The notes under the pieces: model-generated
What the model saw: the letters and a program-made list of their open reading frames with translations, nothing else
Told to the model about the DNA's origin: nothing
The model's database searches: none
NCBI GenBank assembly: GCA_022771265.1
Contig: JALFCG010000004.1
Span: forward strand, 1-64,000
Origin: Prevotella sp.
GTDB taxonomy: Bacteria; Bacteroidota; Bacteroidia; Bacteroidales; Bacteroidaceae
Direction of reading: 5' to 3'
Length of the DNA stretch: 64,000 nucleotides
Position numbers and translations under genes: made by a program
Shown: piece by piece, positions 20,621 to 36,699 of the stretch
Layout: every line of letters begins with the position of its first letter
Numbering within the stretch: position 1 is the first letter of the stretch

Positions 20621-20652
20621 TTTGGCTGTCAGTGAAAAATGTTGTAACTTTG
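20621..20652 (+). promoter_or_regulatory. Promoter TTTG-N20-TAACTTTG upstream of the cobalamin riboswitch
   Basis: Exact -33/-7 consensus, just 5' of the riboswitch. Confidence 0.7.
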
Positions 20653-20654
20653 CA

Positions 20655-20825
20655 GCCGTGATTGGTTCACCACAGGTGATTAAATGGGAACAGGTTGAGA
20701 ATCCCTGACAGTCCCGCTGCTGTGAATGGCCTTTATAGGGTTGGAACAAATAATGTCACTGACAAACAACGTTCGGGAAGACGTTCCAACATGGCTAAAG
20801 TCAGAAGACCTGCCGTCGCATGATT
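20655..20825 (+). ncRNA. Cobalamin (AdoCbl) riboswitch
   Basis: Core GGTGATTAAATGGGAACAGGTTGAGAATCCCTGACAGTCCCGCTGCTGTGA and B12-box-like GTCAGAAGACCTGCCGTCG, directly upstream of B12 uptake genes. Confidence 0.92.
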
Positions 20826-20881
20826 ATTTCATTCGCCTTTCGAGGAAAAGGGGATGGAGAAACAATTTTTGGATATTAGTA

Positions 20882-34249: not shown

Positions 34250-34323
34250 GGTTCCGTAGCTCAACTGAATAGAGCATCTGACTACGGATCAGAAGGTTGT
34301 GGGTTTGAATCCCGCCGGAATCA
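34250..34323 (+). tRNA. tRNA-Arg (anticodon ACG), copy 1
   Basis: 74 nt. Stems GGTTCCG/CGGAATC, GCTC/GAGC, TCTGA-CTACGGA-TCAGA, GTGGG-TTTGAAT-CCCGC. CCA not encoded. Confidence 0.95.
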
Positions 34324-34362
34324 CTTGAAGTCCAAAAATATAAACATATTTCAATGCGGATT

Positions 34363-34436
34363 GGTTCCGTAGCTCAACTGAATAGAGCATCTGACTACGG
34401 ATCAGAAGGTTGTGGGTTTGAATCCCGCCGGAATCA
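34363..34436 (+). tRNA. tRNA-Arg (anticodon ACG), copy 2, identical to copy 1
   Basis: Identical 74-nt cloverleaf, 39 nt after copy 1. Confidence 0.95.
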
Positions 34437-34443
34437 CAAAAAG

Positions 34444-34476: not shown

Positions 34477-34530
34477 GTTTTCCTATGTTATGAAAAAATC
34501 GGATGCGGGCATGAAGCCCGCTAATCCGGT

Positions 34531-34989
34531 TTAATTGTGTGAGGCAAACCGTTGCTCTGCCAGCCGCTCATACTTGGTGCCAGGACGTCCGTAGTTGGCG
34601 AAGGGATGGATGCTGATGCCGCCTCTTGGAGTGAATAGTCCCGTCACTTCGATGTATTTCGGTTGCATTAGGCGTATTAGGTCTTTCATGATGATGTTGA
34701 CACAATCCTCATGAAAGTCGCCGTGGTTGCGGAAACTGAACAGATAGAGCTTGAGGCTCTTGCTTTCCACCATCTTAATGTCAGGAATGTAGCTGATGAC
34801 TATTTCCGCGAAGTCCGGTTGCCCTGTAATGGGACATAGCGAAGTGAACTCAGGGCAGTTGAATTTGACCCAGTAGTCGTTTTCAGGATGCTTGTTGGTG
34901 AAGGTCTCCAGCACTTCCGGAGCATAGTCCATGGCATAATCGGTCTTCTTTCCTAATGATTTCAGACCTTCGTCTTGTCTTGTAGTCAT
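34531..34989 (-). CDS. queF: NADPH-dependent 7-cyano-7-deazaguanine reductase
   Basis: [74 protein letters not shown]. Confidence 0.95.
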
Positions 34990-34995
34990 AATTAT

Positions 34996-35691
34996 TCAGT
35001 CTTGAAATTCCTTTATTTTGAAAATGTTATAATCGACATCATTGTCGAAGGTGTCTATCTGCTCGTGCTTTTTTGTCGCACGCACCACACGTATGGTAAC
35101 GGGAAGTACAAGAATCTCATAGAGTGTTTTCAAGATTACTTGTGAAAGCATCAGCACCGGCAACTCGTCGTTAGGCACTATGCCCCAAAAGGCAATGGGG
35201 AAGAAAATCAGCGAGTCGGCGGTTTCACCGAAGATGGTACTCATTATTGCCCTCATCGAGAAGTGTTTTCCTCCTGAGGAAATCTTCATACGGCTCATCA
35301 CGTAGGCGTTGATGAACGACCCTACGATGAACGCGAGGAAAGAGGCGAACACGATGCGTGGGGCAATGCCGAAGATGGCGTGGAAACCAGCGTCGTTGGT
35401 CCAGTAGTCAGCACCTGGCAATGCGTCGCACAAGGCTCCAAAAGCGACAAAGATGAAGTTCATGGCAAAGCCATACCAGATGAGAAGTCGCGTTTTGGAA
35501 TATCCCCAAACCTCGCAGACGCAGTCGTTGATGATGTAAGAAACCGGGAAGACGATGAGTCCTCCAGTGATACTGATTGGACCAAATGCCATTTGCTTTG
35601 TTTCCAATACGTTAGCCGTGATGAGGCAAACGCAGAAAAGCATGCCGAAAAGCATAAACAGCACACTTACTTGTGATTTTGTTTTTTGCAT
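34996..35691 (-). CDS. Queuosine precursor transporter (YhhQ/VUT family)
   Basis: TANVLETKQMAFGPISITGGLIVFPVSYIINDCVCEVWGYSKTRLLIW; adjacent to queF. Confidence 0.9.
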   Translation of the reverse strand: MQKTKSQVSVLFMLFGMLFCVCLITANVLETKQMAFGPISITGGLIVFPVSYIINDCVCEVWGYSKTRLLIWYGFAMNFIFVAFGALCDALPGADYWTNDAGFHAIFGIAPRIVFASFLAFIVGSFINAYVMSRMKISSGGKHFSMRAIMSTIFGETADSLIFFPIAFWGIVPNDELPVLMLSQVILKTLYEILVLPVTIRVVRATKKHEQIDTFDNDVDYNIFKIKEFQD

Positions 35692-35694
35692 AAA

Positions 35695-35728
35695 ATTGTT
35701 TTTTAGAGGAGGTTAGACAATGACTCCT
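35695..35728 (-). ncRNA. Candidate preQ1-I riboswitch (H-type pseudoknot)
   Basis: Minus strand AGGAG-UC-AUUG-UCUAA-C-CUCCU-CUAAAAAA-CAAU. P1 = AGGAG/CUCCU, P2 = AUUG/CAAU, with A-rich L3, ending 3 nt before the ATG of the queuosine-precursor transporter. Confidence 0.8.
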
Positions 35729-35739
35729 GTTCAAAATGT

Positions 35740-36699
35740 TTATATGTTAATTAAAAGATAAGTCATATACAGGACGAATATTGAAGTTAGTACGGCTCCT
35801 TCCCATCGGGTTACGGTGAGCTTGGTGTAAGAGAAGAGCCATAGAAGGAATATTGATGTTCCCATGACGATGATGTCAACAGGTGTGATGCCGTGAAGCT
35901 CCATCGGGCATATTGCCGCCGTTGTACCGAGAATGGCAAGTATGTTGAACACGTTGCTTCCTATGACATTGCCGATGGCAATGGCAGAGTTGCCCTTTTT
36001 TGCCGCCACAACACTTGTCGCCAATTCAGGAAGTGACGTGCCTCCGGCAACAATTGTCAGACCGATGACACCTTGGCTTATGCCGAGTGACGCTGCGACG
36101 CTCGATGCGGAATCGACGAAAATGTTGCTGCCGAAGATGAGCATCGCCAGTCCTGCAATGAATAGTAATACGTTTTTGATTGCACTATCCTTTGTTGCCT
36201 GGCGCTTGTCTTCTGTCGTACTTTTAGCCACTTTTGCTTCCATCAGTGTCTGGCGCATGAACAATGCGAAAAACAACAGTAGGACAAAGCCCTTTGTCCT
36301 GCCCAGCACACATCCCTCAAAGGAAAGCGGCGTATTGCCAAAGCAGCACATCAGGAACAGCACAGAGGCAATGATTGCCCAAATCATGTCCTTGCCTACC
36401 GTAGTTCGGGTAACACTGATTGGCGCGACCATGGCGGTGACACCGACAATAAGAAGCACGTTGAAGATGTTGCTGCCCACGACGTTACCCACTGCCATGT
36501 CGGGTGTGCCCTTGATTGCCGACATGAAGCTTACGAAGAATTCCGGGGCTGAGGTGCCGGCAGCCACAATGGTAAGTCCGATGATAATCTCTGGGATATT
36601 CATTCTACGGGCAAGGGCTGAGGCTCCTGCCGTAAGGCGGTCGGCACCGTAGATTACTAATGCGACACCTGCTATTATCAGTATGCTGTCAAAAATCAT
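35740..36699 (-). CDS. Calcium/sodium antiporter (CaCA family, YrbG-like)
   Basis: Duplicated alpha-repeats: GLTIVAAGTSAPEFFVSFMSAIKGTPDMAVGNVVGSNIFNVLLIVG and GLTIVAGGTSLPELATSVVAAKKGNSAIAIGNVIGSNVFNILAILG. Confidence 0.94.
   Translation of the reverse strand: MIFDSILIIAGVALVIYGADRLTAGASALARRMNIPEIIIGLTIVAAGTSAPEFFVSFMSAIKGTPDMAVGNVVGSNIFNVLLIVGVTAMVAPISVTRTTVGKDMIWAIIASVLFLMCCFGNTPLSFEGCVLGRTKGFVLLLFFALFMRQTLMEAKVAKSTTEDKRQATKDSAIKNVLLFIAGLAMLIFGSNIFVDSASSVAASLGISQGVIGLTIVAGGTSLPELATSVVAAKKGNSAIAIGNVIGSNVFNILAILGTTAAICPMELHGITPVDIIVMGTSIFLLWLFSYTKLTVTRWEGAVLTSIFVLYMTYLLINI

Follow-up and report, generated by a model that had tools for sequence, protein, structure and literature searches.

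An aptamer of 34 nt, very likely a class I, type II preQ1 riboswitch that controls the translation of a queuosine precursor transporter gene (yhhQ) and, by coupling, probably that of queF, was identified in a 64-kb stretch of Prevotella DNA (hereafter the window, meaning the whole stretch analysed). It is a real and conserved riboswitch, of a class that is itself already known, located at 35695..35728 on the minus strand. The assignment draws on its sequence, on the covariation of homologous leaders and on its place as the top match of a covariance model of relatives.

The element before yhhQ and its gene context

On the minus strand, positions 35728-35695 read AGGAGUCAUUGUCUAACCUCCUCUAAAAAACAAU, followed by UUU and then the AUG of yhhQ. 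The layout, AGGAG-UC-AUUG-UCUAAC-CUCCU-CUAAAAAA-CAAU, is that of an H-type pseudoknot. P1 has 5 bp, formed by AGGAG (35724..35728) and CUCCU (35707..35711) with a G-C top pair (G5-C18), as in stems of class I, type II, and is followed by L1, UC (35722..35723). P2, which joins the loop to the 3′ tail, is formed by AUUG (35718..35721; usually CUUG in relatives) and CAAU (35695..35698), the latter ending 3 nt 5′ of the AUG. L3, CUAAAAAA (35699..35706), is A-rich and ends in A ahead of the P2 3′ strand. L2 and the next base (UCUAA and C17, 35712..35717) include, at 35712, the specificity cytosine C17, predicted to pair with the ligand from its role in the class (PMC11625349). All these features lie on the minus strand, and the initial annotation had described them exactly to the base, including the coordinates, both stems, U6, the C before the P1 3′ strand, the 8-nt L3 and the 48 nt that separate the antiporter stop (35740) from the yhhQ AUG (35691).

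Class I aptamers are typed as II when AC, and as I when UC, precedes the P1 3′ strand, and as III when AAGG is buried (PMC11625349). Since AC, not UC, stands directly 5′ of the P1 3′ strand (UCUA-AC-CUCCU), the window element was filed, from its sequence, as class I, type II. Types I and III share the general pseudoknot and the ligand with it. However, type I, which binds two preQ1 (PMC11625349), was excluded by the AC, and type III, near-exclusive to Pseudomonadota (PMC11625349), was excluded by the P2 3′ strand, which is CAAU without AAGG. The queC leader of Bacillus subtilis and the aptamer of Thermoanaerobacter tengcongensis (type II) share with the window element the H-type pseudoknot, the 5-bp P1, U6, the AC, the A-rich L3 and the short P2. 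The lengths of the elements equal those of the 34-nt B. subtilis aptamer, and L1 of T. tengcongensis is likewise UC. On the other hand, the B. subtilis aptamer acts on transcription via a terminator (PMC11625349), whereas no terminator was seen here, and that of T. tengcongensis buries part of the Shine-Dalgarno sequence (PMC11625349), whereas the window element has no such sequence and abuts the start-codon region.

Annotation of the neighbouring proteins with NCBIfam models agreed with the genes initially named. The yhhQ product (34996..35691, minus strand, 231 aa), a QPTR-family (COG1738) queuosine precursor transporter, matched TIGR00697 with 115.6 bits (cut-off 50.95); the type II QueF, a preQ1 synthase (34531..34989, minus strand, 152 aa), matched TIGR03139 QueF-II with 176.6 bits (cut-off 86.9); and the upstream calcium/sodium (CaCA) antiporter (35740..36699, minus strand) matched TIGR00367. 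With 6 nt between them, yhhQ and queF are probably co-transcribed, and yhhQ would be the first gene regulated by the aptamer. The element is internal to a same-strand gene run, in which the antiporter gene is itself no regulatory part but a possible source of read-through transcription.

An inverted repeat (GCGGGC..GCCCGC) with a T run, directly 3′ of queF (window ~34497-34530, minus strand), likely terminates the yhhQ-queF transcript. Two tRNA-Arg(ACG) genes, scored equally by Rfam (34250-34324 and 34363-34437, plus strand), are convergent with queF; as both are tRNA-Arg(ACG), the pair was ruled out as queuosine-modified species. A cobalamin riboswitch (RF00174, 80.4 bits) was also found in the window at 20646-20832 on the plus strand.

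Conservation and covariation of the leaders

The transporter was present in 34 of 60 related genomes, and reading of the leader DNA revealed the same architecture 5′ of the start codon at nearly all of these loci, for example AGGGG-UA-CUUG-CUAAAC-CCCCU-UUAACAAAA-CAAG, CGAG-UG-CUUG-..AC-CUCG or CGUG-UA-CUUG-..AC-CACG; in L025 and L028, P2 is CUAG/CUAG. In an alignment of 20 leaders (A2), which omits those with L2 inserts or without a full P2, standard pairs occupied 94.4% of cells, double-sided changes were seen at 5 of the 9 pairs, and covariation scored 0.363, compared with 0.081 for shuffles and no more than 0.133 when partners were slid. In a second alignment (A4), of 99 matches aligned by a P1-only model and containing model matches only, 99.7% of the P2 cells were paired and the score was 0.303 (0.064 shuffled), the loci in both alignments being related to each other. 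Two P2 pairs in A4 carried double-sided changes; the P1 top pair was G-C in all relatives, and three other P1 pairs covaried. U6 and the last four A of L3 were invariant (99/99), the A and C before the P1 3′ strand were found in 98/99, and the second L1 base was G or A in nearly all relatives.

P1 and P2 thus covary in homologous Bacteroidales leaders, whose alignment the initial annotation had proposed as a check. Together with the constant place before yhhQ and the further copies at queC and queD, this bears out its reading of the element as preQ1-I.

An orthologous element precedes the majority of yhhQ genes in Prevotellaceae and many of those in other Bacteroidales. A strict test before yhhQ was passed by 62 of 80 named genomes (mostly Prevotella, Segatella, Hoylesella and Leyella). 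An IUPAC pattern of the canonical form matched 114 of 200 genomes of the genus, against ~16 for the same pattern read backward as a control, and 127 of 392 genomes of the order, some of the latter being background. Nearly all of the 82 aptamers listed in relatives end 2-9 nt 5′ of the start codon. The genes behind them are only yhhQ, queC (L034, L102, L103, L114, L115 and L118) or queD (L035), with one aptamer (L119) reaching the contig end.

Bacteroidota are among the phyla with type I, and the distribution of type II is similar (PMC11625349). The presence of preQ1-I in this phylum is therefore not new, and the earlier remark that its occurrence in a Prevotella-like genome is worth recording has to be tempered accordingly, while our literature search found no paper describing Prevotella members or their control mode.

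Departures from the canonical leader were also seen. Canonical aptamers in L095, L096 and L098 are located ~80-170 nt 5′ of queC, too distant to lie against its start codon; these leaders may use another expression platform or contain a leader ORF. In L015, L017, L175 and L189, the upstream gene stops directly before a yhhQ without riboswitch, which suggests riboswitch loss. Before yhhQ in L019 (1462-1505, plus strand), L171 and L197, the leader retains P1 and the A-rich L3, with UCGAUG or UCGGCG as the loop and P2 limited to about two pairs at most, possibly as a variant or decaying form. Hairpins that differ in sequence between genomes are inserted in L2 before yhhQ in L011, L016, L020, L022 and L023, and in the named L142, L144, L148, L164 and L181; in L134, the hairpin before yhhQ is apparently inserted in L3, not L2. 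A motif scan of viral contigs returned no convincing phage copy among the matches listed.

Some relatives carry the aptamer in tandem before yhhQ. Three consecutive copies, few nt apart, were identified in L006 (2180-2285, minus strand) and in L151 (NZ_AUFQ01000001.1, 1895-1999, plus strand), and doublets in L121 (326-405, plus strand, ~18 nt between copies) and L122 (353-413, plus strand, 1 nt between copies). At these loci, the last copy alone abuts the start codon. Such doublets and triplets are absent from a 2022 survey of tandem riboswitches, in which preQ1-I is listed with the classes for which no tandem was found (PMC9481103).

Chance, Rfam scores and divergence of the window copy

A chance resemblance in an A-rich spacer was weighed using a strict descriptor that required 5 and 4 Watson-Crick pairs in P1 and P2, respectively, a U following P1, AC ahead of the P1 3′ strand and AAAA at the end of L3. 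The descriptor matched once in the real 64-kb window, at the yhhQ leader site, whereas 3547 dinucleotide-preserving shuffles of the window together yielded 6 matches, 1 of them with a nearby ATG. This gives a chance expectation of ~0.0003 per window for the motif before an ATG, a figure that serves as a guide only, the descriptor having been composed after the site was seen, so that the comparative evidence carries the case. Single-strand folding alone gave no signal (z = 0.19), which together with the sub-threshold RF00522 score speaks for chance; however, the z is uninformative, as a small pseudoknot is not representable by the folding program, and the orthologous, covarying leaders contradict a fortuitous match, the probability of which is almost negligible.

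RF00522 did not match the window at the gathering threshold. In a 91-nt stretch searched permissively, the element scored 12.0 bits, under the 39-bit gathering cut-off; the architecture is shared, and cmscan aligned the P1 3′ side and AAAAAAC of the window to the model. The best genome-wide RF00522 matches fall elsewhere, at chance level. Likewise, the loci of 20 relatives, most with a textbook element, had no match at gathering, and a permissive search of 13 relatives' loci found only three aptamers (25.8, 23.4 and 20.7 bits). The 39-bit cut-off thus misses the Bacteroidales preQ1-I clade, and since canonical relatives (20.7-25.8 bits) fail too, the low score is weak as counter-evidence. A poor RF00522 score jointly with missing P1/P2 covariation had been named at the outset as grounds for giving up the reading; the score is indeed poor (12 bits, cut-off 39) but the covariation is strong, and the reading therefore stands.

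The leaders of 18 relatives, with the window and its nearest relative (L002) left out, served to build a covariance model (R1). With R1, the element was the best site of the 64-kb window (23.6 bits, E 0.0019) and of the 2.98-Mb genome (E ~0.09), with the next site at 16.6 bits. No second riboswitch was found in this genome by R1, and the genome's own queC has no aptamer upstream. Ranked among its orthologues, the window copy is the lowest but one at 23.6 bits, most relatives scoring 39-59. The yhhQ leaders of Prevotella, Hoylesella, Segatella and Leyella share the orthologous position and the pseudoknot, but they carry CUUG/CAAG and an L1 of UA or UG, whereas the window has AUUG/CAAU and UC. 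L002 has the same C in L1 and, with AUUG/CAAC as its P2, one A-C mismatch at the same first pair; given this mismatch and the divergence of the window copy, the sub-lineage of the two could be relaxing.

The low rank, the divergent L1 and first P2 pair, and the mismatch in L002 would all fit a relic, in which an ancestral preQ1-I leader has decayed and the window copy no longer binds. However, the first P2 pair of the window has changed on both sides (C-G to A-U) and is thus compensated, the pocket positions (G5-C18, U6, C17 and the A-rich L3) are all intact, and the T. tengcongensis aptamer binds with just two canonical P2 pairs (PMC11625349). We consider a relic quite unlikely and judge the window copy, from its bases, to be functional but divergent.

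Ligand, mode of control and significance

The pocket signature of the window RNA is the same as in class I, the known members of which are, to our knowledge, all read as preQ1 sensors, and the RNA very probably senses preQ1, which is a vitamin-like compound. Both tgt and queC are encoded in this genome, and preQ1 is thus a relevant metabolite, probably made and used. Another 7-deazaguanine (preQ0 or queuine) as the ligand would suit the downstream QueF, which consumes preQ0, and QPTR transporters vary in substrate (PMC11130926), but in view of the shared pocket signature we hold this to be very unlikely.

Bacteroidetes mRNAs have no Shine-Dalgarno sequences, and initiation relies on low structure and on adenines 5′ of the AUG (PMC6847099). 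As the initial annotation had noted, no Shine-Dalgarno sequence is visible. The only site from a terminator scan was a weak one within yhhQ, which is no more than shuffles gave, with none in the stretch separating aptamer and gene; a sigma-70 promoter scan gave nothing above shuffles. Of 62 named relatives, 39 have a Bacteroidetes -7 box (TAnnTTTG) in the 60 nt upstream, in most cases at 9-19 nt from P1. With the box this near, the aptamer makes up nearly the whole leader and leaves no room for a terminator before the gene. The position near the AUG, the lack of a terminator and the SD-free initiation thus make translational repression the best supported mode, as had been proposed for a yhhQ-queF segment internal to the gene run.

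The same internal place would permit processing or polarity effects, and a real aptamer might then act mainly via mRNA decay or via transcription of the queF-distal portion, rather than by blocking yhhQ initiation. We regard this as unlikely, since no terminator-like site is found between the aptamer and the gene, and the distance from the aptamer to the AUG (3 nt here, 2-9 nt in nearly all relatives) is the one expected for translational control.

Under translational repression, at low preQ1 P1 may form while the 3′ tail would stay single-stranded, leaving the A-rich stretch ahead of the AUG accessible to the 30S subunit. As preQ1 builds up, C17 would pair with it, and U6 and A30 would close the pocket; the A-rich L3 would dock into P1 and the CAAU tail would pair with AUUG as P2. 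The mRNA from ~-4 to -37 would then be compacted into a pseudoknot against the start codon, initiation would be blocked, and the preQ1 import and synthesis of the cell would stop. The switch would accordingly be OFF with preQ1, by occlusion of a start region that has no Shine-Dalgarno sequence.

The class being known, what adds modest interest is that Rfam is blind to this clade, that the setting is SD-free and that relatives carry tandem copies. Throughout Bacteroidales, preQ1-I riboswitches escape annotation based on Rfam, and we lean towards the view that they represent a large branch of preQ1-I below the Rfam threshold, with SD-free translational control by folding of an A-rich start region, and with tandems and L2 hairpins. 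For this gut Prevotellaceae lineage, the finding adds a regulated operon for the uptake of queuosine precursors. Since translation in these bacteria does without Shine-Dalgarno sequences, their aptamers offer a clean test of how a riboswitch can shut off translation by start-region structure alone.
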